Below are positions 1-46,800 of a stretch of 64,000 nt of DNA, one piece after another. How positions within the stretch are numbered: position 1 is the stretch's first letter; each line of letters begins with the position of its first letter. Source of the stretch: Brachionus manjavacas. Its lineage: Eukaryota > Rotifera > Eurotatoria > Ploima > Brachionidae. The notes below the pieces were generated by a model that searched no databases, had not been told where the DNA came from, and was given only the letters and a program-made list of their open reading frames with translations. A program made the translations under genes and the position numbers. The stretch lies in the NCBI GenBank assembly GCA_019054805.1, contig JAHQIY010000003.1, forward strand, positions 4,030,001-4,094,000. Reading direction: 5' to 3'.

Positions 1-326
1 CTATGTAATCATCCTCTATATGATACAAGGCTTGAATCATACATTCAACTTTCCAGTAATAAAAATCTGAGTATTTAGTAAATAAATCTTGAGAAATAAC
101 CATTTCTTTTTCATTTAAGCCAAATAAAAAAATAGTTTTATCAACTTCATCAATATTTTTCCAACTATTCAGCGATCCAGATTGAGACACTTGGACATCA
201 AATGTGTACAGGATTTCTATTGATTCCTGGCATCCATCAAAACATTCACTTTCAATTGATAACTGATTTTCAGCAAAAATTCTTGTAGATTTAACTGAAC
301 TAATGCACAAATCTGGAAATTTGCAT
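1..326 (-). CDS. REJ-like gene, exon 21: REJ region, continues beyond window
   Basis: Open to position 1. Starts Cys-Lys-Phe-Pro, then CISSVKSTRIFAENQLSIES and Cys-x3-Cys followed by an aromatic strand (ILYTFDV). This is the conserved REJ pattern of paired cysteines followed by Y-x-F/W. About 108 residues are visible. Confidence 0.8.
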
Positions 327-3300
327 CTAATTTTTTTGTTAAATTAATTTCTAGTTAAAAATAATTTTTTCAGTAAGCTTACTGTAGTCGTAATCTGGGT
401 GCTTGAGGAGCTGGGACCACATCAATTTTGATAAATTGATAAAATTTAAAATCATGATATTTCAGTACAGTCAAAAACAAATGCAACCTTTTAGGTCGGT
501 ATATTAATCCACCTGGAAGAATTTTTAGAGTTGTCTGTTTTGAATCGATTTCAAAACCAGCTAAAAAATCCGAAAATATTTATAATATTATCATAAGAAT
601 TATTCGACTTGGCGACTAAAAATTTGTTTTGAAAAATTTTAAAAAATACGAGTTTTTAATTTTTTTTCAACCTATTCATCTAAAATTCGAACAAATCATT
701 AAAAAATAGGGTCTATCTTTTTCAATGAGCCAAAAAATTTCAGGATAAGTTGAATGATTGCCTTTTATTAATAAAAGCTCTTTAAATACATTAGAACTGA
801 AATTTTCTTTGATCAAATTTAAAAAAAATTTAACACTTTTATTAGACTCATTTTGTGTAGAGTTAAATTTTTTTGTAAAATTTATTTTTGAAAACAATTT
901 TTTGAATATTCTTTTTTTGAAAAAAAAATTGTGTGCTGAATTAATTGAAATAAAAAAATTGTTTAATTCCTTGAAATTTTTTTCTTCATCCTTAACTTAA
1001 GGTTTTTGCTAATATTAATGTATATTTAATAATAATGTTTGAAGAATAAAAATTGCACAAAGCTTAATTAAAATTAACTCAATGGATACAAATTTTTTCA
1101 CATTTTTTTAAATTTAATCAGACTGATCCTTACTTTTAAAAAATATTTTACAACTTTGAGAAAACTATCCAAGGTTTACTCCAAAGATGAATCTGTCAAG
1201 CAATTTTTCTTTTGGATTCTGTTTGCTGTTGACTAGATAGTATATAAAAGAATGAAATCCTTGATAGAAAAAAGAGTCGAAACTAATCAGGATGGCAGAT
1301 TAAGCTTCATTTGAATATCATCATTGAAAAGAATGACAAGGTGATGAATCAAATAAAGATCTGACGAAAATGAATGAACTTCCTAAGCTCGATTTCTCAC
1401 GCTGCAATGGGGATCAATGCATTAGTTGATATTTTTTGATGGAAAAATAGAAAAATTTTTCCGAGAATTCATATTCAATTAAAAAATTTTCATATGATCC
1501 ATTTTTAAATTAAAATCATCTAATAGTTTTAATAGTCATCAAATTTTTTAAATCCTAAATTTATTATTATTGATGTTCTATCAGATATTAAATTGTCATT
1601 TAGATGGAATACATTTAAACAAAAAAAACATAAACAAAAGTTGTCCCTAAAAATTAATTAAAAAAATAAACATTTAAATTTTGGGCAATTCATTCTTAAA
1701 TTAAGTTTAAACAGAAAATCTGTTTTTGAATACGGAAAAAAAACGTTTTTTAAATTTTTGTCGGAATATTGGCCACCGAATTCCGGATTTTTTGTTCTAT
1801 TCTTAAATTTAATATCTCTAAAAAATTAATTCTTTTTTATGTAATAATATTTATAAAAAATAATAATAAACTAAATTAAATTTAAACGATTAAGATGTGA
1901 GATTTGTTCAAAAATTATTTTTATTGTAAACAATTAACTAAGTCGAATTTTTTTAATAATTATATAGTCACCTAGATCTAAAAAATAAAAATAAATAATT
2001 TTACCTGGATCAGTAAAGCATTCAGTAAATGATGCCACATTTTTGGAAAAATCGAATAAACTATGAGTCAGAGTAAAGTTTTTTAAATTCAATGAAGTTA
2101 AATTTTCACTTTTATTTTTAATGAAACAAAAAAAATCATAACTAAGCTCATCAAATTTAGCAATTTGATCATAATCATAAGAAAATCTTGCTGGTTCTAT
2201 TTCAAAAGATTGATTAAATCCGACCTTAAGATAGTCAAGATTATTTTCAAGAGTGAATAATTCGATTCCAGTCGGTATTATGCGAATATAAGCCTCAGTA
2301 GAGTTAAAAAATAAATTATTGATATTTTTTATGTAACCTGTATCGACAGTCAAATTTGCCTCAAGCTTAATTTTATGAATTCCATATAATAAAGTATCAT
2401 GAAGTATTCCTAGAAAAAGAGTATCTAAACTCGGATTGTCTTTGATAATTATTTCGGTTTCGTTTCCATTCGAATCTAATTGTAAAATAGTCCATTTGTA
2501 TGTTAGTGAATATTCTTCCAAACATTGTGGTATTACTGTTCCAGGAATACTAAATGATTCATTTCTGAATATTTGAATTGGATGAGAAAAGTTTGTATAC
2601 TCTTGAGGAATTTCGATCAATAAATTACAATCAACACCTTAAAAATAAATTATAAGATCTAAAAATTTAAAGCATAAAATTAAATAAAAATTAAAATGGT
2701 TTAATTTTTGTGTATGAATTACAAAATGTACCCAATGTTGAATTAACATTGAAAAAGTGCGATGTTTCAAATATTTTTTTTTTATAAATTTGACTTTGAG
2801 TTTGTGATATGATTATCCTTAAAATAATTTTTGTATAAAAACTATCTCCGCTCTGTTTTTCATTTTTAATAAATTGATATTAAAATGCATCAAATGAACC
2901 TTGATAATCACTAAAGTCAGAATTTATAAAGAAAAAAATAAAGTTTTTCGGATCTAGTCAATTAGCTGAACTATGGTTCACCTGTTACTGGAACAATTCT
3001 TGTTCTCAGGTTTTATGAACTTTTACTTCGCCTAATCTAAAATTTGTTTACCTATTTTTAAATTTTTTCATCTATTTAGAAAAAAGCTAAATGGAATATT
3101 ATTCAAAAATAAGATAAAAAAAAAAATTAAAAGTTGGGTGGAGTAGGTAAAATTTTCAAAATTTATGCAAATATGTTCCCTAAAGTCAAACACTTGAAAG
3201 GTGAAAAATTAATTTTAGTTATCTTTAATTTTTATAATTTTTGTTTAAAGGCAAAGATTTAAGTAGAGAGCTCATTTGGGTATTTAGGATTGTTGAAATG

Positions 3301-6300: not shown

Positions 6301-9300
6301 TCGTTTTAACGCTTCGAGAAAATGGAAGAGACTTAAGCTAAAAAAAAATTTTGTCTTTTTTGACGTTGCCAGTTGAAAAAAAAATTCAGTAGCTTTTTGT
6401 TTTAAAGATTTTTTTTTTAATTTATTTAAGATTTTAACCACTTACTTAGATAACAATTTGGTGATAAATCATCAATTAAACTTGATGATAAGTTGGTCAC
6501 ACATGCTTCATTTTCATATTCGTATTTTTTATCGAAGTTTTTCTTTTCAATAAAACTAAAATCTTTTACACTTGAATTTTCTTTTAAGTTTTTAAAAATT
6601 AGAGAATTTTGCTAAGAATAAAAAATGAATTGCTACCTTTTTGAATTTCGGCAACACTTGTATAAAGTATGACCGAATTGGAGAGTTGGACAGAAAAGTT
6701 GTAGTGGGCGAAAATTGGATATTTTTTGCTGATTCTAATTTGACCGTAAAAGTAGCCCGTATCTATTAGAGAATTAATTAAAAAACGATATTTAATTCCG
6801 GCTGTGTCCAAATTAGATATAGTTCCATTAGTGTTGTATATTAAATCCCCAAACTCATTTTCACCATTAGACTCCAAACCAAGTATCTCGTTTTCTAAAT
6901 GTCCCAAAAGAAGAACCGCACCTTTAGGGATTTGAACGGGCGTTTGTAATAATATCTGATTGTATCCTTCATTTACACTTAATGAGTAATTAAAAATAAA
7001 GCTTAAATTTGCTCTATTGTTATTGATAAAGTAGCTTGAACACGCGATTGTATCTCCACAATTTGACAGCTTGACAAACTTTTTACAAAAGATTTTAATT
7101 AATTTTTTTTAATTTTAAATTTTATTTTTTACGGATAATTGGATAGTTCCGTTTTGATTTGCAAATAATTCAAAACCTAGAAGATTAGCGGAAAATTTAA
7201 ACTCATTATTTATGATCAAAAAATGACTGGTGGTCGAGTATATTGTCGCTTTTGTCGATGAACTTGGAATTGCTGGTCCAAAATGTTCAAAATACGAATT
7301 TCCAGCAACATTTAAAAGGTCAGGAATTTGGCAATCTCCATAATCTATCAAGATCGAATTTGTCTGAGTTTGAGAATACAGATGCAAATTACAATCAAGA
7401 GTAAAGCCTTCAATTATTTTGCACATTATCTCCATGCTTTTTGCTGGCAAAAAATTAGAAAAACTCAAAAAAAAACTTTAAACTTACAGCTGGTCACACT
7501 GAAGGATTTGCTAGTGTTGAAAATAGTAATTTTATAAGGTCCTTCGAAGCTATAGGTTTTATTAAATAAATATTCTTTTGAATAATAAAAATCATGAGCT
7601 GTCAAAGCTTTGAATAAAAAATTCAATTGTCTATTCGAATCTATTTTTATTATGTTTCCAGAGCTAAGATAATAGTCTTCGAAGTAGCTTCCATTTAAAG
7701 CTTGAAGTCCCACTCGACCGGTTGAATCAAATCTTATGGTAACAATCCAACCCTGAGGCGCTGGTAAATATTCGTTTATCCAAAAAAAGTTCTTCCCCAA
7801 ATTTTGCGGATTTAACGTAAATGTTTTCTCTATGACTTTTGCCGAAAATGATGTCGTTTTTAGAAAAAAATTTCCGCAACTTTCATTTAGTTGACCATTT
7901 CCGCATTCTGTTATTCTATTTAGAAGGACTGTAAATTGTCCGATTGCACTGACGTAATACTCAAAACCAGCCAATATTGTGTCGAATTTAAATTCTGTAT
8001 TTGGTAGAATGAATTCAGGAGATATCGAAGTAAGTGGAATAATTGTATCGATCATTTCGGGTATGTTAACTCCAAAACCATCGAAAAATTCACCTTAAAA
8101 TATTATTTAAAATTACGTTTATATTTATTGTTTTAAATTTGTTTTAAATTTTTTTTAAGGAAATAAAATTTTAACAGTGATGAATTGGGAGAAAAAGGTG
8201 TTATAAAGGGAATGGATTAGGACACAAAATTTTTTAAAAAATCATCGAAAACTACATCTAATTAAAAAAAAATTAATAAAGTATTATCTTAAAATATTTA
8301 TATTAATTAGTTATTATTAAACTAGAATATTTTGGTCAATATTTCTTTCGTCAGATAGATTTTTTTTGTACCAGCAATTTTTTTTTTAAATGGCCTGATG
8401 TCAATGATCAAAAAACAGTGCAATTTAGATTACTTCAAGAAACAGTGGTGCACTTCTTTAAATGGATGGTATGAAGCTGTTGCTCTTGGGCTACCAAGTC
8501 ACAATAGCTCATCAAATAATATCATTAAAAAATAAGGAACCTTGCGTGAAAGAAAGGCGGTTGAAAAGTTTCTTGCAAAATTTAAAAATTAAAAGAATTG
8601 ATCAATTTTCTAGAATTAGAAATCATAATCATTTAAATTATAAAAAATTTTACACAGAACCCATTATAAAACATTATTGTTTGGATTTTTTGTTTAACTT
8701 TACCAATTTGAAAATCGATCTTGATGGATTGACAAAACAACAATGCAAAAATTATTGCGACAACATGCGAAATATATCTTAGCCTTTGAATCTTATTTAA
8801 AAGAGATAACCACAGTTTGGAGAATTGATATCAAGCTGAAAAGTAGTTGAACTTATAAATTCTGGCTAAAAGCCTTCTTTTGTAATCATATCATAGCGGT
8901 GTTAAGTTTTTTTTTTTTTTTAATAGTTTATTAAATAAAAAAAAAAAGGTCTTTGAGTAATGAAACTCCTTTCGCTATTGGTATTTAGAATTTTAAATAA
9001 GTGTCCATGTAAAAAAGCGGTGTTAAGTAGGCTAAATCTCATTTAAATACCTCTCCAGCCAAAATGTCTACCAGTAGGCCAAAAACGTAAAAGAGGTCAA
9101 TCATCAAAAACAAGGTCTGCATTTAAACGTCTGCCAAGTGGAAATAGTGAATATTTTGCAGTGAATCCAAATCCAAAACCAGCAACCTGTTTCTCGGAAT
9201 GAAAATGCAATGAAAACAATTCAACATAACCAAGCTTATCAAACTATTTTAGCAATGGTTAATGAATGAAATCTGTCAACCAGCAAGAAAAAAATGGAGA

Positions 9301-12231: not shown

Positions 12232-12262
<31 letters not shown>

Positions 12263-15200
12263 TATTGATTTAAGTCTCATAGGCAAAATAAAAAAAAAGA
12301 AAAAAAAAAAAAGAAAAAGTTAAGTTAAGTTCTTCAAATTCTACAAAATTTGAAAATAAAAATAATCAATTCACAAATTTGAAATAAAAATTAAATGATA
12401 AAGCAGAATTTTTAATCTTGGACATTAATCAAGTATTAGAAAATTAAAAATTGATTTCAAATAAACTCGGACAAGCAGAAAAAAATCAAATTTCCAGAAA
12501 ACATTTTTAACACTTAAAGGCCGGAGGGCTTTTTCGACCTTTTTTGCTATAGTAAGACAGCCTAATTATTTTATGTGTGAACGGGGTGACAACTTTTAAA
12601 TTAGTTTAGAAAATTGTTAATTTTCTATAGGCATTGGGATTTTTTTTCTAAAAATAAGTAATTGAGTGTACAGAGAATTTAAATAAAAAAACAGCTTGTA
12701 GAAAAAAGAATTTTTTTCTAATTTTTTTTGAGTCAAAAAATAAAATTTGTCAAAATGGGTGATTTTCTATCAAATTATGTATTTGGTTTAGGGTTTAAAT
12801 CTCAGATATTTTTATTTTATTTAAATCACCTTTTTTGCCATTTAATCTAAAAAATGTTCAACGAATTTGCTAAAGAAAAAAAATATTGCAATTGTTTTTT
12901 TTTAGACGGACTTTTTAAAGGGGTGAATTTTTGGGTCAATTCTGTTAATAGGGTATCACCCTATTAGGACCAAAATTCACCCAAATACTGTCAAAATTCA
13001 CACAATAAACCTTGAAAATAACTCATTTAACTCATATTAACCTTTGTAAAAATACATGGCAACCCCATCTGTGTGATTTTCAGGGCTAACCGGTTGAAAA
13101 AATTGTCAAATTGGGTTAACAGGATTAACCGAATTACCCCTCATCTCATTAACCCCAGTAGCTAACCGGGTGACCCAAAAATTTCGGACTAAATGGGTGA
13201 TTAAATTTCGCGTTTTCTATCGTTACTGAGTCTTTAGGAAAATTATCAAAAAAATAGGTGACCCGATTAGGCCATCTTACTATATTTATTTTGCTTTTTA
13301 TTCACTGAACATTTTTTTTCTATCTAGTTTTAATTCAAAACTCAAGCTGATTTAAATTATTTCTAAAATTAACACTGTAAAGACCAAACTCAAAAAAATA
13401 ATTTTCTAAAAGCTAACATCAACAAAAAATCTCCTTTTAGAATTTGATAATTTTTTATTTAATCTTATAGATTCTAGTTAAATTAACCAAATAGGGTTTT
13501 GTGAAATTCAAAACAACAAAATGATAAAAAGAACAGAAAAAAATGAAAATTCTAAAGGTTCAAACTTAGGGCCATTAAAATCCATACCACAAAACTTGAT
13601 TAGAATACCCCAAAATTTAATTTTTTCCCCAAAATATTAAATAAAATTCCCCAATTATTAAGATTATACATAAAAAACTAATTAACAGCAAATCAAAGAA
13701 AATTTTTTTATAAGTTTTTTTTCTTTATTTGTTTTCTGTTCCGAGATAGAGGTCCTTCAGAATAAATTATAAAAACCTAAAAATTTGTGGTAGTCGAAAT
13801 AAATTTCTCTTAAACTTAATTCTTTGAATGCAACATAATGCAAAATTCAAAATTGTTTCAAATATCAAGGTCTGCCAGATTTGCAGAGCTTAGCAGAAAT
13901 TAAATTTCAATAAAATTGAGCCTAGTGCATTTTGCAACATTAGCAGACTTTTACACTTGATGCAACTTTGAATGTTGCACCATGCTGCATTCACAGAACT
14001 AATTTTAAACTTTTAGAAAGAAAGTTATTAAATTTTTATACACTTCGCTCCATTCTAATGTACTGAACTTCACAAAACCCAAAATAGAATTATTTTTTAA
14101 CAAGTCCAATAGAGCTTCCTTAAGTTATTCATTATAAAAGACGGTGTAAAATTGGCACCGGTCATTCTAGTGAAACGAAAAAATTTGAACCAAAGAAAAG
14201 CTTTGTCTCGAAGAAAAGCTGTCTTACAAAACCTTGAACCTCTTAAAAGGATTATTGATTTTTTAAATGCATATGATGCTCAATCAGAACTCTCTGATGA
14301 TAATTATAACTATTATGAAAAGAATGATGACTTAAATAATGATTTTGAAGAAGAAATGGAAACATCAGATCATTCTAATACTGAATATGACTCATGAAGA
14401 AACATTAAAAAAAAAGAATGACATAACTTCCAAAAATGGAACGGTATGGATTAGATTGAATGACGTATAAGAGACAATTATAAGACAGGAAAGAAATTTT
14501 ATTAACTGGAATTAACCGCTGGATCTTGTGTAAAACTTGTAATAGAAAAAGATTTCTCGTCGAACACATTTGAGGTCGTTGGGCGATGAATTGCTGGAAA
14601 CGATTAATAAAAGCGTACAGCCTAAAACTCCAATCACTTTAGTTACTTGTAGAAAGCACTGAACTGATTCATCTCAAAAATTTTGAAAAAACGTGACAAT
14701 TCAGATTACGTAAGGGAAGGATATCTAGCTTTACTTATGACAAATAAAAAAATTTACATGTGATCCTAGTCTAGAGGAAAAGGCATTTAAACTGATATGT
14801 AAAATTTGCTACATATAAGGAATCTATAATAGAATTTATTTCTTGTATTTATATTATATATAAATAATTTCAAATTTTTATCTAAAAAAAAATGACAAAA
14901 ATGATTAAAGACAATCATTTATAAATTCAGTAGCTTTTTTAACATATTATAAATAATCATGACAATTTATATCGCCTTAAAAGCATATTTAATTTAAGGA
15001 TTTTTGTCTTAAATGAAAAAAAAATTGGTCTTTGAGTGCTAAATGAATAAAATAAGATCAAATTTAAAAAATTACTTTTTTAATAAATTACTCAAAATTT
15101 ACGAAGAATTACGTTGAAAAAAAAAGATTTTTTTCCATTGATTTTAATTAAAAAAATTAAAAAAAAATCGAAAATCATCGAATTTCTCGTAAAAATTATG

Positions 15201-18200
15201 AAATAGGTTTTGCAATTATCAATTATTTTTTTTAGATATTTTTTTATTTTTTTGTTTTAAAATCTCATAAAATTTACTTTCTGACAGTGAATACAAATTT
15301 TGGTTGGAAGCTACCACATAATCTGATTTTGAGAATGAAGATGCAATTACCACGCAATTAATTGTATTATTTATTGTTCTGTTATTGTCCTTACAGTACA
15401 AATCAATGGTCTGATCTAAAAAATTAAATTAAATCTTTTTCTTAAATATATTTTTATTTACTTTTTGAAATTGTTAACTTCTCTGTGATCAAGTTTTCTG
15501 CATTCTCATTTCTCACAGTAATATTATAGTTTCCAGTTGAAGAGTAATTTACTGAAAAAGGAATCGCATCCGAGTATAACTTTGGTTCAGTTAAAGCATT
15601 AATTAAAATATTCGACTTTTTCCATAGCTCAATTTTATGCAAATAATTAGCAGTTCCATTTATTACCATATCTTCGTACAATTCATATCGATTGGTATCG
15701 TAGAAAAATCTAGCCGTAAAACCAACTGATTCCAAATAAACCATATCGCCTTTCTTTGCCAAAAATGGCTGGGTCAAATAGAAACGACTTTTGCCTTCAA
15801 CGACTGTTGTTACCCAGATAGTGTAAGTAAAAGTAAGCGCCTTGATCGGGTCTTTCAATAGCTGATCAGCGCAGCGACTTGTCCTGACACAAAGTGTTGG
15901 TGAATACAGCACAAATTTTACTGTCCCTCCTAGACTGGCAAAGTATTCAAATCCATAAATCCAAGTATCATTTACAAATTCAGTATTTAACATTAAATAA
16001 TTTGCGCTCCAAGTAGTTTTTGTAGGCGCTTCATCAGGTATTGTCAAGCCAACATAAGTTTTGATTTGATCTATTTTTATTTTTTTAAATTAATATTTAA
16101 CCTTTTCTTCAAACTTGTAAAAATCACAAGTTGAACAAAACTTTTTCCTTTTTTAGAGCTTTATAAAATATATTTTAAAAACATAGTGCAACACACTGTG
16201 CTGCATCTTTTTTGCCTAAAATACTTTTTCTATTGTTAAAATAAAACAAAAATAGGACATAAATAAATTTAAATTGATTATTGTTTTACTAAGAAAGATG
16301 AAAATAAAGATTTTATTTTGGGCAAAAAAGATGGAGCCAAGTTTACTGCACCATGTTGTAGTATTTTTTAAAAAATATCTTATTGTCTTTAATTTATCAA
16401 TAAGGAAGAACTTTTGTTCATCTAGTATTTGAAATTCACAGCTCCTTAATTTTTTTTTACCATTAAATGAAAAATTTCCAATTTGACCATTTCCATAATC
16501 GACTTCGAAAGAATCTGATTTAGATCTAGATTTAATAAAGAGGGTGCAGTTGACCATTAGATCTAAAATGTAGTCTAAATCCCAGCAAATCAAATGGTAC
16601 CAATTTTCTGAAAAGAAAGAAGTAACAAATTTTTAAATCAAGAATAAAAATTTTACCATAAATTAAAGTGAATTGGCGAACTAAATTAACCGTGCTGTTG
16701 GAGATGTTTGCCTCAATTGAATGAATGACTGAACTTTGATTATTGAAAGGCTGGTACTGTTTATCAAAGAAAAAGTGATTTAAGAAATATTTTGTTTCTA
16801 TGATCATATTGACATAAAGTCTCCAATTTTCTGTCATGTTTAGTTTTCGAGAGGTTGTTGAAACGATCAGATAGTCTGACATTATAGTCGAATCATTGGT
16901 AGCATTCACAGCCAAAACTCTATTATAATCAAGAACGTTTAGAATGTAGCCTTTTTTAACAGATAAAGGGGTGACAAGAATTCGATTATAGCCTGGTACT
17001 AAATTAAATGCCCGTTCATTAATAATCAATTTTGGATTGAAAGCAGGCGAATCTTTGAATATTTTACTAAAGCATGAGTCTTCTAGACAATCGTCATATT
17101 TAATTATCTAATTAACATTAAAAAATAATAAAAATTTAAATTTAAAATTTTTTTTATCTACTCTAAATGAGACTGATCCTGCGATAGCTGCAAAAGCTTC
17201 AAATCCAATCAAATTTGTGTCAAATTTAACTTCGGTGCTTGCAAGACTAAAGATTCCAGACGCTTGATTTCGGAGTACTTGTGTGATGTTTTTACTCGGA
17301 TTGTATGAGCCAAATCGAGAAATTAGATTTCCTTTAAAAGTTAAATTTAATTTCAATTTAATTTCTAAATAGATTAATAATTAAAAATTTTGAACTTCAA
17401 GTCAAACTAGGGTCTTTTCAGTAAAATAAATCTGGATTGATACATCTGAGACATAGCAATTTTGTTAGAAATTGAATTATCGCGGAGAAAGATTAAGGAA
17501 ACATATGAAATGTGAATCTAAAAATTAACAACATAAACTAAAATTTTTATTTTTTAATCTTTAAAAAAGTGAACTAAAACAAAAATATTTTTGAGAGAAT
17601 TTTAATGACCAAAGTTAATTCTGAGGTTGACCTTGAATTTATTTTTATTTTTTAAAAAAAAATTTTAAAAGTCCTGACTTGGACTTTTTTTTAAAGACTT
17701 TTAAACAACTCTGAAAAAATCAAAATGACACTTTTCTAATGTTTTAATTTAATTTATTTTTAATTTTTACAAAAAAGTTAGTCTTTTGCCATCAATTAAT
17801 GGACTGACAAATTAAATTAAATTTTACTGACAATAAGACTAAATCTCCTGACGAAAAAACTACACATGATGACAAATAAATTAATTGACTGATAAAATAA
17901 TTATTTGAGTGACAAAAATACTTTTTTGATAAATTAATTATTTTTTCAACAAATTAATGATTTTGAGGTCACAATAAAAATCAAAATCTTGAACTTTAGC
18001 ACCAAAATCAGAAGGAAGCTTCAGACAATTATGACAAACCGTTTTGTCCAAATCTCATCATCAAGTTAGAGTCAACTATGAGAAAACGTCACAATTTAAG
18101 TTCATTCCTTACAATCTTAGAGAATTAAAGTACCAAATAGCTTTTCTTTTTTTTTCTCTTATTCACTCCTTGTGAAGCATAGGGTCATTAGTTTTGATTT

Positions 18201-21200
18201 CCACTCAAGTCGAACTAAATAGCTTAATTAGAACTAAAATAAAATAAAAATGAATAAAATTTTGTCAGTGCAAAATTATTAAATAGTCATCTCAATATAT
18301 ATATATTTGTCAGTCGTTTCGTTTTTTTTTGTCAGCTAATATAGATTAAATTAGTCCCCACTTTTAGTTATTTTTGTCATCTTAAAAAATTAGATTTGTC
18401 ACCCCCAAAAAATTTAAGCCTTAGTCGTTTATAAACATAAATGAAAAAACAAATCAACGTGTTTGGTAACAGTTTAAAATATAATTTTATGTTTATGATT
18501 GATTCACTTTTTATATGTTTCTTTAATCAATTATGACATTTCCTATAAGTTAGATGTACCTCAAGAATTAATCCTAAATAATTTTAGACTATTGAAAAAC
18601 CATGATTTGGCCTGCATAAATTCATGAAGAAGTTGTCATTCTGCATTCACTTGGTTGAGATTTGGTACTTCCAGTTTCTAGCTCTAGATACGAATTTAGA
18701 GGCTTTTCTTTGCTTAGTCTCCTAAAGTGTCTTTGATGCCCCTTTTGCTTGACATTGACAAGACAGCTGCAGCTAATTCGATACTGGCCTTATGTATGTG
18801 CAGCCTTACAGATATGTTTTTAAGTGAAAAAAAGAAAAATATTCTTTAAGTATATTCTGTATAGCCGAGTGGTTTGTGTGTTAGACATAAAAGCAGAGGA
18901 TTAAATGTATCTTTTCTTAGCATTGTGAATTTAGGAAAATTTTCGTATATTTTTTTCAGAAAAAAGCTTAGAAAATAATAAAATATACATTATTCTAAAA
19001 AGAGCGCTAGCAAGAGACTATTTTTTGCCCTTTTACAATACGCGAAAAATTAATTAAAATCTCGTTATTAAAAAAAAATTTACCATAGCAATATTACAAA
19101 AAAATTAAAGATCATTTTTATCAATTCGTTGAAAAAATATTTTCTTTAAATTATTTTATTTTTTGAATCTACATAACATGTAAAGAATGTTACACTAAAA
19201 TTATTTAAATTAATTTGTACTCTTTTTGCTGAAAATAAGAACTAAGTACCATTCTGAGTGGCATGAGGTTACCTTCAAATTATAAACTAATTATTATAGC
19301 TAATTTGCAATGAATGGTAATTCGTAGACCGCAAACAGAAATTAATAATGAAAAGAACTTATTTTTTTCTTTATTTATTAGTTCTGTATTTTTGGCAATT
19401 CTATATTTTTCTCTTAATTTTTTCATTTTTTTTTAGCTAAACTCAAAAGCTAAACACAATTTAGTCCCAAACTGTAACTATTTACCTGAAATACTATTGA
19501 CAGTCGCATTTTCTTCTATATCAAATTTAGTCTCAATTAAATCGTTGATATCATTTGTGGCTACAATCACAGTACAATGTATTGTAAAATCCACATTATT
19601 TCTTGAATCACCACAATAAATTTCTAAATTTCCGACTTGACAAAAATCACATAAATTTTTTTTCTTAATTTTATTAAAAATTTACTTTTAGGATCAAAAT
19701 TGAATTTTTTATTCAACGTATATGTTTCAATGCTAAAATTAGCGTCAAAAATTTGTTCACCTACAAAATTAACTTCAAAGTCTAAATAACTCAAAAATAT
19801 CCAGTGATCTATTATCGGATTGATGCAAAATCTATTTCTCTTGTTCATATCAAGCTGTGTTAAAAAATATTTTGGTGAAACAAAATCAATCATAAAATCT
19901 TCGAAAAAATCCGCACTACTATCAATACTGATTCTGCCAGTCGAATTCTGTTTCAAGTGCAAAAGATAACCTTTTTTAACTTTAAACCCATAAGGTAATC
20001 TAATCATGTTGTAACCCTGTTCAACTCTGATCTTCCATGTGTGTAATTCATTAAACGTTTCATAATAGAATACATTGTCAAAATAGGTCCTACAGCTTGA
20101 GCTTGTACCACAAAAAGAAAAACTTCGAATTGATAGATAAATAACGCCTTCAGTCCATGCATTCACTTCAAATCCTATCAATTTATGGTCATCTATAAAT
20201 TCGGTACTAGTTAGCAAATATTCCATTCGGCCATAGTCCAAGGACTCTGTTCCATAAAAACTGAGGTATGTGCTATAGCTGAGTTCACTTATTAACCCAT
20301 AGCCTTGGCTCGAATTTGTTTTGTTAACATAAAACTCAAAATCAGTCAAGTTATATTGGGATAGAATCAGCATCAGACCTTTGACTTGTTGGTAGCTAGA
20401 ATTTTTAAAAAATATGTCACCCTTAAATTCTGAAAAAATTAGTCACAAAAAGATAATTTTTTCAAACAAAAATATATTTACTTTTTGAAATACTGATATT
20501 TTTATTCAAAGTTAAATTGTTAAATGTAGCCTTAATCGAATGTATCCCAAATGACTCAAATTTTTTTTCAAAATAAAATTGATAAAATTTAAAATCGGAT
20601 ATAACTGGACTGATGGCAAGCCGCTGTTCTTCCATAAAACTTAGTTTTGAAAGAAGAATACTCGATTGATTTTCATAGATAAAAAAATCGGATAGAACAT
20701 GACTTGAATTTATTGCTACCATTCCATCATAACTTTGGTTAAGAACCAACATGTCTCCTTTTGACACATTAACTGAATTAATTGAATAATTGCCAAATCC
20801 CTCTGTAATGTTTAGTTCCCAAGTATGCTTCACTGTATATGTAGGAAACACCTCTATGTTCTTGTTAGTCAAATAATTCGAACAAGAAGAACCACAATTG
20901 GCAAATGATACCAGCTAAAAATTTAAAAAGGAAGTTAAAGAATTTATTCAAATTTTTGGTTAAATTGATAAATAATATAAGATTATTAATGAAAAAATGA
21001 AATGGTTTTAAAACATTTAAAAATTGCATAAATGAGTTATTACTTTTGAGAAATGAAAAAAAAATGATAATTGGAAATTTAGTTTATGAAATAGAAAAAT
21101 AAATAATTAAATTTTAAGAAAATTTCTAAAACAAAAATATTCAATTCAAAATTTAAATTAAACCAATAAATTTTAATAAGAATACTGGCTTTAAAAGATG

Positions 21201-24200
21201 TCTTAATAAGAATTTTGTGAAATTCAATGTAAAATGATAAAAATAACATAAAAAAATGTAAAAAAATTCAATAACTTTTTTTCTAGTGGCTTAAGCTTAG
21301 TTCTTTGAATGCAACTAATGCAAAATTCAAAGTTGTAACAAATATCAAGATCTGCTAAATATGCAGAGTTTATCTGAAATTTAATTTGAATGTTGGACCA
21401 TGCTGCATTTACAGAACTAATTTTAGACTGTTAGAAAAAGGTTATTTATTTTTTTTCTAATTTTTTCTTTTTTTCTATCATTTTGTACTGAACTTCACAA
21501 AACTCACAATAAGGATTAATATTAAAATCGCCTTGTTTTTTAACTATCTCTATTATTATCTCATAAAAAAATAATTTTTTTTTTAAAAAAGAATAAATAT
21601 AATTAAATTCCAAGTATTTAATTTTTTTGAATGATAAGAAATTTGTATTGACTATCGGTAGAGTTTTGATAAACAACAGCTTTTGGATAAGATTCACGCA
21701 GTCATACTACAACTACTACTTAGCATAAAAATAACAGAAGAATTTTTTATTTTTTTAAATATAAATTTATTTTATTCAAAATTCATAGAAAGCTATTAAA
21801 AAAAAAGAACTTATGTGTTTAAGAGTTCAGTAGACAAAAGCGTATTAGGGTAAAAAAAAATAAAAAATCAGCAAAGTAAAATTTTATGAAAATTCATATT
21901 TTTAAAAAGCTAACACTGTACATCAAATAATCAGTTCATCGAATTCTCTAAGGGTATTGAAAAAAAAATTAAAGGTTCTTTAAAAAATTTCCGTTGGAAA
22001 GTTTATTCCGAAATAATTCCTTTTTAAATATTTTGATTAGTTTCTGTGAAAAAAATTTAATTTCTTAGTCTTTGAGTCTTTTCAAATTTAAGTCAGTAAT
22101 TCGACTTAAAAAAAATCTTTTAAAAAAATTGGCTTAACTTCTATTTTTTTGTTTTGGAAATCAAAATAATTTTAAAAAGAAAGTAAAAAAAAATGAAGCC
22201 AAAATTTGAAAATCATCATTATTTCCAAAAAAAATTCCTTTTAAATTTTTTTTTATTTTTCAAGAAAAAAATTTGATCGTCAACTTAAGAAACTTTATTT
22301 TAAAAAAAATTGGAGTAATTAGGATTTAATTATAAGGATTCTTTTTAGTGCACGAATACAGTAAAAAGAATCGTTGAAAATAACTTGAAATTGAAACGTG
22401 AAAAAAACATATAGAAATATTGTATAACTGTTGGAAAAACATTAGTCAATTTTATTTATCAAAGTAAAAAAGTGAATTAAAAACAACAATTTTTTAAGTC
22501 ATAATTCATTTTTTTGTTCACTAGAGGTAACCATAAAGCATATAGGAAAGAATTTACGCTTAATATCTGTCGCACCAAACACTATAAGTGAAAATCCGTA
22601 CTTAACGACTTTTTAAGTACAGTTAAAAACTTAAATTAAATCAGTCAAGTTATATTGGGATAGAATCTATGTATGTAAGTCTTTCTCATTTTCATGATCG
22701 CTAAGACCTTCGATACTATTTACAGATGAAAAATAAACTTAGGTATTTTTCACTATTGAAGAAAAAATTTATGTTTTTTAACTTTTTTAAATAATAATGC
22801 TTAACTTTATGTTTTTTTCTCTGCTCTTGTATGTTCAACTTTCATTTTCATGTTTATGTGGTGTTTTTAATTTTCACTTTTTTTATGTGAATTTAATCCT
22901 CTACCCCTAAAGATTGCTTTACATAAATAAAAGTATTAATTTACCAAACAGTTTTAAAAATTTGAATCATTTTTGTGGTAAGCTAGACGATTTTTCGCTC
23001 AAAAACGGAAGAAAATTTACGGAAGGAAAAACAAATGGCAAAAAAATATTGCGAAAAAAAATTTAAAGAGGGAAAAAACCAAAATTACTGAAAAAAATAT
23101 TATTCAATTAGAAGGTTTGAAAAAAAGGTAAAGATATAGAGTAAGTCGGCTAAATTTTTAATGACATTGTCGAGTTTGAGGTAAATTTTGAACTAAAATA
23201 TAAAAAATATATTATATCATCTAAAAAAACGTCAAACTTTTGTTGCCGTTTTCTACGTTTCAGAAAATAATTAACAATTATCCTTTCTGAAATTTTTTAA
23301 ATATTTTTATCGTTTTTATGAATTAGATTTGTAGCCATTTTTGTAATATTTTTCAAAAAAATAAATATTTTAATTAAAAAAAAAATAATTGTTAAACTAT
23401 ATTTTTTTAGTCTAAAGGATTTAAATAATTTTTCATATTTTTAAAAGATTTTTTTTGATTAACGATGAAAAAATCCTTTACTAAAACATTTCCATAAAAG
23501 ATATCCTTTAAAAAAGGCGACCTCCTAGTAGACCCTTCCGCAAGCCTGCTTGCTGTAGCTTTTAATTATTATTATTATTAAAAGGAGAACTTGTACAGAA
23601 TTTTTTTAATAAAATATATTCAAAAAATCGTTAATTTTAGTTGACTAGGTTTTGAATGGAAAAGACTATAAATTTAGGAATTTTTTATGAAATTAATTTT
23701 ATGCCATTTTGTATTCTACACACTTAATTTTACATATTATTTATTTACTTTTATTTCAACAAGCCCAGAATTGATTGCATAAATCTCAAAGCCATTTAGA
23801 GAAGAATTTCGCCTAATTTCAGAATTAAGGAGTAAATATTTGACCGATTCCTGCGGCTCTAGATATTCAGCCGCTTGGTTATCAGTTGTAACTTAATATA
23901 ATAAAAATAATTTAAATTTAACAGTTTCTATACAAAAAATACTATAATTTAGCAAAATTGATTCATTGTTTCCAAATTGTATTCCAATTGTTGGATCGTC
24001 TAAATCAGTTTCTAAGTCAATTTTGCAACCAATTGTAAAATCAAGAGACTGATCCGGATCAGAGCAAAACATTTCCAAAAATTGACATTCTTAAGGCAAT
24101 TTTTAATTTAAAAAAGTTTTTTCTTTGGGTTTTAATTCTTTTTAAATTACGAATGTCTGATCCAAAGCAAATGCCCATAAATAAAATGAAAATTTTCCAT

Positions 24201-24205
24201 AACAT
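1..24205 (-). CDS. Polycystin-1/REJ-like multi-module receptor (21 exons, 3' part outside window)
   Basis: My spliced model on the minus strand. Exons: 24151-24205, 23943-24089, 23749-23891, 20482-20914, 19686-20429, 19486-19635, 17162-17364, 16657-17107, 16461-16607, 15462-16070, 15278-15415, 10773-10945, 10269-10716, 10072-10218, 7488-8093, 7133-7443, 6637-7078, 6446-6580, 2005-2637, 383-560, 1-326. All introns are GT-AG and the phases agree throughout, giving about 2206 residues still open at position 1. Order: signal peptide (1 to about 16), seven modules of 241-268 residues (19-1782), a linker (1783-1827), and a REJ region (1828 onward). REJ modules are known from polycystin-1, PKDREJ and sea-urchin sperm REJ receptors, where a GAIN/GPS site, a PLAT domain and membrane helices follow; those would lie left of the window. 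Many N-glycosylation sequons fit an extracellular protein. Likely an adhesion or ligand-binding ectodomain; ligand and tissue unknown. Splice sites were placed by eye and the gene may be alternatively spliced. Confidence 0.82.
383..560 (-). CDS. REJ-like gene, exon 20: REJ region, middle part
   Basis: A 178-bp exon with no ATG. It has TTLKILPGGLIY, a Leu-rich strand, then YQFIKIDVVPAPQAP, the segment expected in REJ modules between the Cys-rich part and the next I-x-C. It enters in phase 1 and leaves in phase 2, which is the only way to join exon 19 to exon 21 in frame. Confidence 0.78.
561..2004. other. REJ-like gene intron 19, no gene seen
   Basis: 1444 bp of AT-rich sequence between exons 19 and 20. 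The short open frames overlapping on both strands at 676-1000 are low-complexity Phe/Lys/Asn runs and look like chance. No element boundaries recognised. Confidence 0.6.
2005..2637 (-). CDS. REJ-like gene, exon 19: REJ region, N-terminal part
   Basis: Residues 1828-2038. Opens with Cys and a stretch of SIPGTVIPQC followed by LTYKWTIL, typical of the start of a REJ module (Cys then Y-x-W). Later it has YIRIIPTGIEL and a stretch ending LSYDFFC, matching the second REJ repeat, where a hydrophobic-Asp/Ser-rich segment leads to Y-x-W/F-x-C. Phase 1-1; donor at 2003-2004. Confidence 0.8.
2692..3869. mobile_element. Non-autonomous element with about 80-bp terminal inverted repeats
   Basis: The segment 2692-2773 and the reverse complement of 3789-3869 are nearly identical, sharing for example GAAAAAGTGCGATGTTTCAA. 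The 1.18-kb interior has no credible ORF. Its 3325-3480 part resembles the dispersed repeat at 9615 and 24770. A third arm of the same family lies at 63751 to the window end. Inserted in intron 18 of the REJ-like gene. Confidence 0.65.
4251..4662. mobile_element. Non-autonomous hAT-type element (MITE) with 8-bp target duplication
   Basis: Begins CAGAGTTG and ends CAACTCTG, with imperfect inverted repeats of roughly 45 bp (both arms carry TTAAAAGTC and GTCCAGACTTTTT). It is flanked by a perfect 8-bp duplication GTTTGAAT (4243-4250 and 4663-4670), the size made by hAT transposases. 412 bp. The open frames inside, on both strands, are not protein-like. Related arms occur near 17667-17716, 24938-25053 and 33879-34010. 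Confidence 0.8.
5132..5335 (+). pseudogene. Tc1/mariner transposase, C-terminal fragment
   Basis: One frame reads PPKSPDLNPFEMIWNELK, then an LTPAKCQAYINHL segment, to a TAA at 5333. SPDLNP(F/I)E-x-(I/V)W is the signature around the third acidic residue of Tc1/mariner DDE transposases, and LTP-x2-C-x2-YI is their usual end. Everything upstream of the signature is missing: an in-frame stop sits at 5129-5131. It lies in intron 18 of the REJ-like gene on the opposite strand. Confidence 0.85.
5340..5602. mobile_element. MITE with perfect 47-bp terminal inverted repeats
   Basis: The first 47 bases (5340-5386, starting AGGCAATGTGAAATATTAGT) are the exact reverse complement of 5556-5602. Flanked by the direct repeat AATAAG (5334-5339 and 5603-5608). 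The 263-bp element has no ORF. The left duplication overlaps the stop codon of the transposase fragment. Identical arms suggest recent insertion. Confidence 0.85.
5690..5975. repeat. Repeat rich in TTTACGTAAATTT motifs
   Basis: Contains several short palindromic TTACGTAAATT and ACCATTTT motifs, like those in the inverted-repeat element at 43154-43780. Probably a degraded relative. Boundaries unclear. Confidence 0.35.
6446..6580 (-). CDS. REJ-like gene, exon 18: linker between modules and REJ region
   Basis: 135 bp, phase 1-1, residues 1783-1827. Charged and Ser/Asn-rich with two cysteines near its end. It matches no module block clearly and may be a degenerate block A. Supported by phase agreement and a good donor (GTAAGT); the acceptor is weak. 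Confidence 0.55.
6637..7443 (-). CDS. REJ-like gene, module 7 (exons 16-17: 7133-7443, 6637-7078)
   Basis: Residues 1532-1782. Exon 16 fuses A and B, unlike any other module: the A cysteines are 9 rather than 12 apart, followed by ILIDYGDCQIPD, then NNEFKFSANLLGFELFA. Exon 17 is block C with CGDTIAC. The acceptor of exon 17 was set at 7079-7080 because it gives the same strand length before the first cysteine as in module 2; an acceptor 9 bases further on is possible. Confidence 0.78.
7488..10218 (-). CDS. REJ-like gene, module 6 (exons 14-15: 10072-10218, 7488-8093)
   Basis: Residues 1281-1531. Exon 14 (147 bp) is block A, with C-x12-C and ILVDYGDCNSSS. Exon 15 (606 bp) fuses B and C: NTEFKFDTILAGFEYYV, a longer cysteine loop CGNGQLNESC, and YLFNKTYSFEGPYKITIFN. 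The fused B-C layout matches module 4. The intron between (1978 bp) contains a Mutator-like remnant and a truncated retrotransposon. Confidence 0.82.
8395..9200 (+). pseudogene. Mutator-like (MULE) transposase remnant
   Basis: Scattered frames read WYEAVALGLPSHN with NNIIKK, then TLRERKAVEKFLAKF, then FWLKAFFCNHIIAVLS and CLPVGQKRKRG. These match in order the WYEG-x-PSTNN motif, the LRER segment, the SWIM zinc finger (C-x-H) and the Lys/Arg-rich tail of animal MULE transposases. Several stops and frameshifts. The SWIM part is split by a 108-bp insertion at 8908-9015. In intron 14 of the REJ-like gene, opposite strand. Confidence 0.7.
8908..9015 (-). mobile_element. 5'-truncated non-LTR retrotransposon insertion with 13-bp target duplication
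   Basis: On the minus strand it ends with GGAGTTTCATTACTCAAAG, a T-rich stretch, and a poly(A) run (poly-T at 8908-8921 as printed). The same 3' end is found at about 52640-52690. Flanked by AGCGGTGTTAAGT at 8895-8907 and 9016-9028. A classic dead-on-arrival copy, inserted in the MULE remnant. Confidence 0.8.
9615..9960 (+). repeat. Dispersed repeat ending in a retrotransposon-type 3' tail
   Basis: Begins CTAAAGCTCCTTCAAATT and ends GAAGGAGCATTAGCTCGG followed by CAGATAAACAAATAAATT; the start is roughly the inverse of the part before the tail. Interior contains TTCAATTTGTTCACCTAATT. A second copy is at 24770-25112 and a partial one at 3325-3480. No ORF. Confidence 0.6.
10269..15415 (-). CDS. 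REJ-like gene, module 5 (exons 11-13: 15278-15415, 10773-10945, 10269-10716)
   Basis: Residues 1028-1280. Exon 11 is block A (C-x12-C; CKDNNRTINNTINC). Exon 12 is block B (LTEFKFETTLIGFEIYS). Exon 13 is block C (CGETISC, VNKGQMIVI, YFYFNQSFEP). The A-B intron is 4332 bp, the longest in the gene, and holds at least two inverted-repeat elements. Confidence 0.8.
12229..12315. repeat. (TTA)n microsatellite and A/G-rich run
   Basis: About eleven TTA/TAT units, then an A-rich tract with scattered G. Inside the 4.3-kb intron of module 5. Confidence 0.85.
12548..13284. mobile_element. Inverted-repeat (foldback) element
   Basis: Ends TATAGTAAGACAGCCTAAT (12548 onward) and ATTAGGCCATCTTACTATA (to 13284) are inverted repeats with two mismatches; terminal TA bases could be a TA target duplication. 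The centre (12926-12980) is itself palindromic, built around AATAGGGT-ATC-ACCCTATT. 737 bp, no ORF. Confidence 0.65.
13494..14080. mobile_element. Inverted-repeat element, family of three (copy 1)
   Basis: Left end GGGTTTTGTGAAATTCAAAA is matched in inverse by the right end TACTGAACTTCACAAAACCC. The interior has TCAAGGTCTGCCAGATTTGC and TGCATTCACAGAACTAATTT. The second copy (21211-21505) shares ends and interior; a half copy lies at 35408-35532. No ORF. Confidence 0.65.
14152..14397 (+). CDS. Unrecognised ORF with basic start and acidic tail
   Basis: 81 codons without ATG (opens at TTG). Basic residues dominate the first 35 positions and the last 35 are Asp/Glu/Asn/Tyr-rich, ending TEYDS. 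No recognised domain. It follows the inverted-repeat element and lies in an intron on the opposite strand, so a fragment of a transposon protein is as likely as a real exon. Confidence 0.2.
   Translation: MAPVILVKRKNLNQRKALSRRKAVLQNLEPLKRIIDFLNAYDAQSELSDDNYNYYEKNDDLNNDFEEEMETSDHSNTEYDS
15462..16607 (-). CDS. REJ-like gene, module 4 (exons 9-10: 16461-16607, 15462-16070)
   Basis: Residues 776-1027. Exon 9 (147 bp) is block A with C-x12-C and FEVDYGNGQIGN, the most PKD-like version. Exon 10 (609 bp) fuses blocks B and C: NTEFVNDTWIYGFEYFA, CVRTSRC, AKKGDMVYL, and a final FSVNYSSTGNYNITVRN that closely matches the end of a PKD domain. Confidence 0.83.
16657..19635 (-). CDS. REJ-like gene, module 3 (exons 6-8: 19486-19635, 17162-17364, 16657-17107)
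   Basis: Residues 508-775. Exon 6 (block A) reads CGDSRNNVDFTIHC, the same C-x12-C spacing as module 1, and was found by alignment to it. Exon 7 (block B) has STEVKFDTNLIGFEAFA. Exon 8 (block C) has CLEDSC, LSVKKGYIL and the terminal FFFDKQYQPF strand. Longest module (268 aa). The intron between exons 6 and 7 is 2121 bp. Confidence 0.78.
17365..19485. other. REJ-like gene intron 6: repeats, no gene
   Basis: Holds a right arm of the CAGAGTTG hAT-like family (17667-17716), a stretch at 17780-18420 with many TGACAAA/TTTGTCA motifs in both orientations, a less AT-rich 230-bp segment at 18600-18830 with no recognisable protein, and a tRNA-like A box near 18863. Confidence 0.5.
18858..18920 (+). 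other. tRNA-like / SINE-like relic
   Basis: TAGCCGAGTGGTTTGTG matches the pol III A box of class II tRNAs, followed about 25 bases later by a weak B-box-like GAGGATTAAATG. No acceptor stem pairs and no anticodon arm is convincing, so it is not called as a tRNA gene. Confidence 0.3.
19686..20429 (-). CDS. REJ-like gene, module 2 (exon 5, intronless module)
   Basis: Residues 260-507 in a single 744-bp exon of phase 1-1. All three blocks are present: a weak A block without its two cysteines, a B block with STEFIDDHKLIGFEVNA, and a C block with CGTSSSC and FKVKKGYLLHL. The other six modules have one or two internal introns, so this is the only copy without any. Confidence 0.85.
20482..24089 (-). 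CDS. REJ-like gene, module 1 (exons 2-4: 23943-24089, 23749-23891, 20482-20914)
   Basis: Residues 19-259. Block A (exon 2) has two cysteines spaced C-x12-C and ends in a PKD-like strand-turn IGIQFGNNES. Block B (exon 3) has the repeat signature NSEIRRNSSLNGFEIYA followed by a G-x-V-x-I strand. Block C (exon 4) has CGSSC, then VSKGDMLVL, and ends with YFEKKFESFGIHSIKA, which resembles the last two strands of a PKD fold. Exon 3 is not obvious as an ORF; it was found by homology with the other modules and exact phase agreement. The B-C intron is 2834 bp. Confidence 0.75.
21211..21505. mobile_element. Inverted-repeat element, family of three (copy 2)
   Basis: Starts AATTTTGTGAAATTCA and ends TGAACTTCACAAAACT, inverted relative to each other. 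The interior segments GAATGCAACTAATGC and ATGCTGCATTTACAGAACT match copy 1. 295 bp, about half the length of copy 1, so internally deleted. In intron 3 of the REJ-like gene. Confidence 0.65.
22639..22667. repeat. 29-bp duplicate of an exon 5 segment inside intron 3
   Basis: Identical over 29 bases to 20340-20368, which is coding sequence in module 2 (exon 5), in the same orientation. Flanking sequence is unrelated. Confidence 0.7.
23515..23590. repeat. Short GC-richer segment followed by (ATT)n
   Basis: About 45 bp of mixed composition (GACCTCCTAGTAGACCC and TTCCGCAAGCCTGCTTGC) ending in an ATT microsatellite. It stands out from the surrounding AT-rich intron 3 and could be the 3' end of a short retroelement. 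Confidence 0.35.
24151..24205 (-). CDS. Exon 1 of the REJ-like gene: start codon and signal peptide
   Basis: ATG at 24205-24203, preceded by CTCAAA. The exon encodes MLWKIFILFMGICFGSD followed by a split codon: one basic residue, a hydrophobic core and a small residue before the likely cleavage point, i.e. a classic signal peptide. The donor (GTAATTT) and the acceptor before 24089 join in phase 1, giving an in-frame Ile-Gln-Cys. No TATA box is evident upstream. Confidence 0.75.
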
Positions 24206-28050: not shown

Positions 28051-28090
28051 TAGAGAGGTTGGTCTTTGAGACTAGAATAGGAATGAAAAT

Positions 28091-46036: not shown

Positions 46037-46800
46037 AATTCGTAATAACAAAAAAAGATAATTTAAAAAAAAAATTTTTTTAATTTTTTTTTTATTTGAC
46101 TGATATTTAATTTATTTTTATGTATTTAGAAGCAGTTATAATTAATTTTACATTTTATCTAAAAAAGAGAAAAAGTTTAAATAAAATGGTGATTAGGGGC
46201 GTATGTGAGTAATAGATTGCGATATGGAAGAAAAGATGCCTAGTAAGAAAAGATAAAGCTCCGTTGTAGTCCATCTGACCAGTTGAAATTGAGAATGGAT
46301 CGTGTTAGATTTCAATCAAAGTCTATTAGTGTGTGTGTTGTGTGTGTGTGTGTGTATAGATTAAAAATTATGAATTTGTTCTCATTTTCTCTCCATCTCT
46401 CTCTCTCTCTCTGTCGACTAGCATTGAATTAAGTCTATGTTTATTATATATTTTATGTATGTTTCTAAATGAAGATAGACCTGAGTCTATTTATGTTGTC
46501 TTTAGATTAGTTTCGAATTATAATTTTGTTTATGATCAATGAATAGACTGAGCTAGTTGTTTGCAGTGATTAGAAGGGGGCTTTATTCGCTCAGTCGACC
46601 GGAGCACGTTTCGACTCTTATTTGTGTAAAAATTCTCATTGTGAACTGAACGCTTTATTCGCAGCTGACGAATATTCATCCGCATGTGAACTCAAATGAC
46701 CGATCGGCTCGGCTTAATTCTCTAATCCGAACACTCAACATAATTTGTGTAAACAAATAGGCTTGTTCAAAAAGCACTGGTCAATCAATTGAAAATAGGA
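46037..46800 (-). promoter_or_regulatory. MRCK: MRCK upstream / 5' UTR region with microsatellites
   Basis: Contains a (TG)n tract near 46330-46356 and a (CT)n tract near 46392-46412 in plus-strand terms. A less AT-rich stretch at about 46560-46740 has GCTTTATTCGC twice. By position it should hold the promoter and 5' UTR; no TATA box, initiator or upstream exon could be identified. Confidence 0.35.

Follow-up and report, generated by a model that had tools for sequence, protein, structure and literature searches.

The receptor gene and its exons

The window analyzed here is a 64,000-nucleotide stretch of the Brachionus manjavacas assembly GCA_019054805.1, taken from contig JAHQIY010000003.1 (C3:4030001–4094000 in the 114-Mb genome; other places in the genome are given in the same way, and coordinates without a prefix count from the first letter of the window). 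Primer MMRBF, designed for the mate-recognition gene of B. manjavacas (PMC2746195), has one exact match in this genome and two more with a single mismatch, versus none for the reversed control, which makes a Brachionus of this or a closely related species the most likely host. The left part of the window carries a minus-strand gene that starts at 24205 and exits the window leftward at position 1. Judged from its sequence, this is a gene for a polycystin-1-type (PKD1/REJ) receptor, composed of a putative signal peptide, seven tandem modules, a REJ (receptor for egg jelly) region, a GPS, a first transmembrane segment (TM1), a PLAT domain and a polycystin channel. The modules, described as unfamiliar in an initial annotation of the window, are probably PKD repeats that carry an undescribed insert.

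Nineteen exons, from 24205 to 2004, were joined in a single frame by means of our own simple splice score and the frame itself. Because GT-AG joins alone were considered, with some freedom in site picking, the splice dinucleotides provide no independent evidence. The initial annotation had counted 21 exons in one frame; this count stands for the 19 exons between 24205 and 2004, and the total of 21 is reached with the stretch 579–382, added by eye, and the stretch 343–1, added by similarity. As read from the sequence, the open stretches that had been noticed over 24 kb are one real gene. Its parts in the window, all on the minus strand, are as follows.

24151–24205, minus strand: exon 1, with the start codon and a hydrophobic N-terminus that by eye resembles a signal peptide (MLWKIFILFMGICFG)
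20482–24089, minus strand: module 1, exons 2–4 (24089–23943, 23891–23749, 20914–20482)
19686–20429, minus strand: module 2, entire in one exon, from which the structure was predicted
16657–19623, minus strand: module 3, exons 6–8 (19623–19486, 17331–17162, 17107–16657; alternative acceptors 19635 and 17364)
15462–16607, minus strand: module 4, exons 9–10 (16607–16461, 16070–15462)
10269–15415, minus strand: module 5, exons 11–13 (15415–15278, 10945–10773, 10716–10269)
7488–10218, minus strand: module 6, exons 14–15 (10218–10072, 8093–7488)
6637–7443, minus strand: module 7, exons 16–17 (7443–7133, 7078–6637)
6446–6580, minus strand: exon 18, which links module 7 to REJ; acceptor uncertain
2004–2637, minus strand: exon 19, where REJ begins (25.5 bits with Pfam REJ, whose cut-off is 25; 23.7 bits in the genome scan)
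382–579, minus strand: exon 20, open stretch placed in the REJ region by eye, with approximate borders and no match of its own
1–343, minus strand: exon 21, later part of the REJ region, continuing to about C3:4029745

The window part of exon 21 (343–1) was matched by the REJ protein of a paralogue on C12 with an E value of 6.8e-18. Pfam REJ itself matches this exon slightly beyond the left edge of the window, at C3:4029876–4029998 (25.2 bits in the genome scan, 26.5 bits in a separate scan), and window positions 2–343 scanned alone gave no REJ match.

The gene extends ~20 kb left of the window and ends near C3:4010.2 kb. The coordinates of the initial annotation therefore hold for the ectodomain, and the rest of the gene lies to the left of them. 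We examined 40 kb left of position 1 for GPS, PLAT, membrane helices and a channel. GPS reached 28.7 bits (cut-off 22.5) after two exons were joined by eye, compared with 15.2 bits unjoined; the join was placed by means of the unbroken frame of the C12 paralogue, which itself scored 19.7 bits on GPS. The GPS motif of the window gene retains HLT. PLAT followed with 59.2 bits (cut-off 23) and was preceded by one hydrophobic peak (TM1). The polycystin domain (Polycystin_dom) was found in two pieces (82.5 and 29.5 bits), and PKD_channel matched with 106.4 bits. Ten hydrophobic peaks, two of them overlapping, were present in five exon frames; the family has 11 transmembrane segments, and the C-terminal exon chain is incomplete. 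The GPS, membrane helix and PLAT that the initial annotation had predicted to the left are thus in place, and its assignment to the REJ family was borne out by these and by the polycystin domain and PKD channel. N-glycosylation sequons numbered 59, versus 31.4 ± 4.9 in shuffles, which predicts a heavily glycosylated protein. Canonical PKD repeats before REJ are common in the family, though not obligatory; of the 12 PF00801 matches listed for the genome, none falls in the window gene.

Seven related modules

The seven modules comprise 240, 248, 253, 252, 253, 251 and 251 residues and are 18–29% identical in pairwise comparisons. These lengths nearly agree with those of the initial annotation, except for module 3, which had been given 268 residues. 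That value follows from the alternative acceptors 19635 and 17364; likeness to module 6 favors the acceptors 19623 and 17331, and with these the module has 253 residues. Eight invariant columns are common to all seven modules (E, G-F-E, C, G, G, D). Phase 1 introns flank both ends of every module. Another phase 1 intron lies at profile column 46–52 in 5 of the 7 modules, and a phase 0 intron at column 102–103 in 4 of them. Modules have homologues elsewhere in the genome, the best with an E value of 5.9e-21. Since the intron positions recur across modules of only 18–29% identity, and since homologues exist elsewhere, chance is excluded as the source of the likeness. The claim of seven related tandem modules before REJ is accordingly upheld by the shared columns, the recurrent introns and the genome homologues.

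The middle of the module is a separate domain

The structure of module 2 was predicted from an alignment with 10 further exon fragments of this gene, which gave a predicted local distance difference test score (pLDDT) of 68. A model of the same module folded alone (pLDDT 39) was discarded. The well-predicted part of the model is given below.

19798–20232, minus strand: inserted beta-sandwich of module 2 (model residues 66–210; mean pLDDT of ten-residue blocks 78–93 over residues 71–210)

In the model, this part is all-beta plus one short helix. When the model was compared with the Protein Data Bank (PDB) by Foldseek, no match had an E value below 0.001. The first two were the lectin-like domain of Cwp84 (4ci7; E 0.042, probability 0.96) and a CBM4 module (1gui; E 0.055, probability 0.85), with 9–12% identity and query TM-scores of 0.21–0.37; the poorly predicted ends, which form part of the query, probably contribute to these low scores. 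In BFVD, the best match was unnamed (E 6.1e-5), and the second was a neck passage structure protein of a Lactococcus phage (E 1.8e-4). The fold of the insert is probably a jelly-roll-like beta-sandwich, as far as the model goes, and its likeness to lectin-like domains hints at sugar binding. Sequence searches of the intact module in Pfam, NCBIfam, PHROGs and PDB sequences gave no significant relative for the middle; apart from PKD at the ends, there were only weak matches with E values of 0.02 or worse. The intact-module scans of the family collections (Pfam, NCBIfam, PHROGs) covered 17 of the 19 complete modules, with C1:5368617 and C8:5116233 left out. Viral and prokaryote contigs, scanned with single modules, contained no relative.

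The separate nature of the middle is best seen in a paralogous gene at C5:5164 kb. Here, the module profile matched with its columns 45–215 only (C5:5164096–5164704, 110 bits), directly before canonical PKD repeats, and no N-terminal half was found in the ~1.1 kb examined upstream. A weak match of the same region occurred in two exons before the PKD repeats of the gene at C5:5134.8–5135.5 kb (C5:5135 kb gene; domain E 0.0055 and 2.8e-5), the second of which lies in biased sequence. The middle is a separable domain because the C5:5164 kb gene has it without recognizable halves, and because residues 71–210 of module 2 predict well whereas most of both ends do not.

Copies across the genome

The profile, iterated three times on selected stretches, detected at least 50 core copies at seven places: 16 on C12, 13 on C6, 7 in the window gene, 5 on C1, 5 at C3:5301–5312 kb, 3 on C8 and 1 at C5:5164 kb. 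This is a lower bound; copies at C6:657.5 kb (E 1.3e-7), C8:5104 kb (weak, E 0.068) and in the C5:5135 kb gene (weak) were not counted. At six of the seven places (C12, C6, C1, C8, the window gene and C5:5164 kb), the copies lie 5′ of same-strand REJ, GPS/PLAT and channel matches. Outside the window gene, this order was read from matches and open frames, unspliced. The remaining place, C3:5301888–5312010, is on the contig of the window as well and holds another array, of at least five modules. No REJ, GPS, PLAT or channel match was found near it in the genome scans, and it may be an orphan array, or belong to a truncated or diverged gene.

The genome search for canonical PKD repeats, in which only the best candidates were scored, listed 12 matches with E values up to 10. 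Ten were on C5, in three REJ genes, two weak ones were on C9, and none fell in the arrays. As the C5 genes and human PKD1 have PKD repeats at the position before REJ, the module arrays hold the place of these repeats.

The module ends resemble two halves of a PKD repeat

When the middle is set aside, ~45 N-terminal and ~35 C-terminal residues of the module are left, and these resemble the halves of a PKD repeat of ~80 residues. In the alignment of complete modules, the N-terminal part contains two cysteines and, where it is clearest, a strand that closes with DYGDG, DFGDG, DYGDC or the like; the C-terminal part has the pattern K/H-x-Y-xxxG-x-Y-x-I. With borders at columns 46 and 210, 80 of the 245 columns remain, which equals the length of PF00801. 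From these sequence features, we consider it likely that each module is a PKD repeat (Ig-like) into which a jelly-roll-like beta-sandwich of ~165 residues is inserted. The insert would lie between the PKD 'YGDG' strand and the 'H-x-Y-xxxG-x-Y' strand. The middle is observed as a domain of its own; the PKD nature of the ends, and with it the nesting, is what we infer as probable.

The strongest single match came from one of the C6 modules. After removal of its insert, this module matched Pfam PKD across both halves with 26.5 bits when joined by hand and with 23.9 bits when cut at fixed columns (cut-off 23.5), and with 12.6 bits when its N-terminal half was replaced. A profile of 19 insert-less modules ranked the canonical PKD repeat of C5:6066 kb first among 57 frames (E 2.4e-5), with an alignment spanning the join; on the same repeat, the control profiles gave E values of 0.0037 (C-terminal half) and 0.23 (N-terminal half). 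When compared by hhalign with six PKD sequences, the N- and C-terminal halves aligned with the corresponding parts of the PKD profile. The C-terminal 30 residues of window module 4 gave a sub-threshold PKD match of 14.2 bits.

Several results weigh against a split PKD repeat. Among four hand-joined modules, only the C6 module exceeded the PKD cut-off; a C12 module (20.7 bits, PKD_4) and window module 4 (19.1 bits, PKD) stayed below it, and window module 7 gave no match. PKD was matched by 2 of the 19 insert-less modules, by 2 of the 19 C-terminal-half controls and by none of the 19 N-terminal-half controls. As the joined modules and the C-terminal-half controls gave the same number, the counts do not favor PKD; only the score and the span do. 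One control set also matched an unrelated Pfam family (E 0.00045). At E < 0.01, the insert-less profile found one of the six canonical PKD places, with a second at a domain E value of 0.021. The N-terminal-half control profile reached E 2.6e-4 and 13.1 bits on an antisense frame, which is the noise level, so the 16.1 bits of the insert-less profile are only modestly above noise. The P values of hhalign were 0.0023 for the joined module, 0.0023 for the C-terminal half alone and 0.18 for the N-terminal half alone, too weak to decide. A loose [YFW][GD][DNTK] pattern was kept in 19 of the 41 N-terminal halves, a count that has no chance expectation beside it. Among the intact window modules, no exon reached the Pfam PKD cut-off, and 2 of the 17 intact modules scanned matched PKD at all, with a best E value of 0.0007. 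In the model of module 2, most of both ends had pLDDT values below 50. The reading of the N-terminal half as PKD is the weakest link.

These points could be explained differently. The module might constitute a single novel domain, or a jelly roll that brings flanking strands of its own; the PKD likeness of its ends would then be due to convergence or chance in Ig-like strands. This would agree with the lack of any intact module above the PKD cut-off, with the weak support for the N-terminal half on its own, with the canonical PKD places mostly missed by the insert-less profile and with the poorly modeled ends of module 2. We nevertheless regard it as unlikely, because the C5:5164 kb gene has the sharply bordered middle by itself, the PKD match crosses the join above the cut-off in one paralogue module (C6), an intron marks the border between the N-terminal half and the insert in 5 of the 7 modules, and the arrays sit before REJ, where the C5 paralogues have canonical PKD repeats. 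It is highly improbable that the open stretches over 24 kb are an artefact rather than one gene. Although the gene model was built from genomic sequence alone and some splice sites are weak or ambiguous, the frame is held through 19 exons, intron positions and phases recur, and the C5:5164 kb gene and four further arrays show the same order of parts. If the ends are indeed a split PKD repeat, the initial annotation was right to call the module unfamiliar in its middle, which has no significant family, but not in its outer ~80 residues; and the PKD repeats that it had thought missing are probably present in disguise.

History of the arrays

In a tree of 50 cores, 12 small clades (up to six leaves) were supported at 0.8 or higher, and none consisted of the modules of one gene only. 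The first modules of the window gene, C1, C6 and C12 clustered with a support of 0.90, and the last modules of the window gene, C1 and C12, together with one third module of C1, with 0.82. The third, fifth, ninth and eleventh modules of C6 and C12 paired with supports of 0.97, 0.94, 0.96 and 0.91, respectively, the eleventh pair including a copy from C3:5301–5312 kb. The deeper tree was largely unsupported. Reciprocal best modules of C6 and C12 were in order in 11 of 11 cases (1-1, 2-2, 3-3, 5-5 to 11-11, 13-14), which was matched in none of 5000 shuffles. The other nine gene pairs had 2–4 reciprocal pairs each and were not significant by permutation, and the pairs window gene–C12 and C6–C8 were not fully in order. 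The order of modules in the window gene therefore rests on the tree alone. For 30 of the 41 modules, the closest relative was in another gene, the pool of other-gene modules being larger.

The 11 collinear pairs imply that the array predates the duplication of C6 and C12 and has not been homogenized since. Concerted evolution or recent expansion was rejected for C6 and C12 on the basis of the tree and collinearity, and for the window gene on the basis of its 18–29% identity. The expansion proposed by the initial annotation thus has to be corrected to an old array, with its order fixed at least in C6 and C12. The split repeat would have multiplied in tandem before the carrier genes were duplicated, and C6 and C12 at least have kept the positions in order. 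We see about an even chance for the full course of events, in which one PKD repeat took up a lectin-like jelly roll, the hybrid multiplied to up to 16 tandem copies and displaced the ordinary PKD repeats of five or more receptor genes, and every copy has been fixed in position since gene duplication.

Possible function

In the mechanism that we propose, the PKD halves would form an extensible stalk, as in polycystin-1, and the inserted sandwiches would protrude from it sideways as glycosylated lobes for the binding of ligand or matrix. After GPS cleavage, the ectodomain would stay noncovalently bound; pulling or binding could then be passed via REJ/GPS to the multi-transmembrane part, which, together with a PKD2-type partner, would let calcium into a ciliated sensory cell. 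For related proteins, it is reported that the GPS-cleaved parts stay together and that PKD repeats unfold and refold under force (PMC1934368), that in Caenorhabditis elegans LOV-1 is cleaved at the GPS and its N-terminal part is secreted into the matrix (PMC9829181), and that Platynereis PKD1-1 acts in the hydrodynamic startle (PMC6294549). By analogy with them, the window gene may encode a long sensory receptor on which ligand-binding lobes are repeated. The genome carries other PKD_channel genes.

Mate recognition by the window gene is possible, and polycystin-1 proteins serve water-movement sensing and chemosensation too. The modules could be a fast-evolving, recently expanded mate- or gamete-recognition array, like the brachionid MMR repeats or the sperm REJ receptors. 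SpREJ1 and SpREJ3 are thought to be active in the sperm acrosome reaction (PMC1934368), and LOV-1 is reported as required for sensing the ascaroside mating pheromone in C. elegans (PMC9829181). However, the 18–29% identity of the modules and the collinearity of C6 and C12 differ from the nearly perfect repeats of 87–92 codons described for MMR (PMC2746195), which makes a young array of this kind improbable; an old array could still serve recognition. A better, though still doubtful, candidate is a sensor of flow or touch that sits on protonephridia or ciliated sensory cells and whose lobes anchor matrix rather than choose a ligand. The strong PKD_channel match at C1:288700, with no PLAT nearby, is as expected of a PKD2-type partner for such a sensor, but the position-specific retention of the lobes would be left unexplained.

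Polycystin-1 is the main protein of human polycystic kidney disease, and what its long ectodomain senses is, to our knowledge, still open. The family described here is a natural one with an apparent extra lobe on each stalk repeat and with an order kept in two paralogues, and would make it possible to ask whether the stalk is a spring only or also a ligand reader. If the nested structure is true, the receptor would present a series of differing binding lobes on an extensible rod coupled to a calcium channel. The family also provides candidate receptors in an animal for which the gene-level identity of the mate-recognition signal has been established; we know of no mate-recognition receptor identified in this animal at that level.

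Other features of the window and genome

The following features were recorded beside the receptor gene.

32413–46111, minus strand: frames resembling a gene that we take to be an MRCK-type kinase (kinase, coiled coil, C1/PH-like and CNH-like parts)
35775–37853: exon frame covering most of the GC-richest 2-kb block of the window (36001–38000; 51% GC versus 20–36% in the other blocks)
35547–35760: 41-base tandem repeat (5.2 copies, 98% matches) adjoining this GC-rich exon frame
26722–29024, minus strand: reverse transcriptase-like and BED/hAT-type transposase-like fragments, recognized by eye
About -10586, -12518, -14095, -17021, -20668, -21219 and -35829 (window coordinates), minus strand: copies of the KCLGPYHVECTGS frame

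The last of these is a near-identical frame of ~38 residues (KCLGPYHVECTGS...) that occurs at least seven times in the 40 kb of the left flank and probably belongs to a dispersed repeat. Elsewhere in the genome, 25 PLAT matches lie on one strand within ~20 kb (C5:3135393–3155608), as a poly-PLAT gene or cluster, and three GPS-TM-PLAT-like copies, each with one internal TAG, lie ~9–10 kb apart at C2:9402096, 9411035 and 9421197.

Comparison with known systems

Literature searches on a rotifer REJ domain or receptor for egg jelly found nothing; those linking Brachionus or rotifers with polycystin or polycystin-1 returned unrelated papers, as judged from the listings, and those on PKD domain, domain insertion and jelly roll returned none on point by title. 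The brachionid MMR proteins come from the same kind of animal and are likewise secreted tandem repeats. They differ in having near-perfect repeats of 87–92 residues that are predicted to be helical, and the MMR-B genes show no introns (PMC2746195). Concerted evolution is reported to keep the MMR repeats nearly identical (PMC2746195). The window modules, with 240–253 residues and 18–29% identity, are not near-identical repeats of 87–92 residues.

The inserted domain shares its overall beta-sandwich with jelly-roll lectin-like and carbohydrate-binding domains (4ci7, 1gui), but has no common sequence family with them and only 9–12% identity. The outer ~80 residues of the module share with PF00801 a YGDG-like strand and an H/K-x-Y-xxxG-x-Y strand. 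Unlike PF00801, the module is split by ~165 residues, and 2 of the 19 insert-less modules match, the best (23.9 bits) narrowly passing. In the human and sea urchin proteins, PKD repeats are reported to have 50–70 residues (PMC1934368).

In the sea urchin Strongylocentrotus purpuratus, 10 SpREJ genes likewise make up a REJ/GPS/PLAT family whose ectodomains vary (PMC1934368). The SpREJ ectodomains contain C-type lectin, EGF, SUEL, WSC or PKD domains, and in the portion of that account available, no PKD repeat that holds an inserted domain is described among them (PMC1934368). With the polycystin-1/PKD1 family (human PC1, PKD1L1 and PKDREJ), the window gene shares REJ, GPS, PLAT after TM1, the polycystin domain, the channel and repeats before REJ. 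It differs from this family in that the repeats before REJ give no canonical PKD match, their place being taken by seven modules of 240–253 residues.
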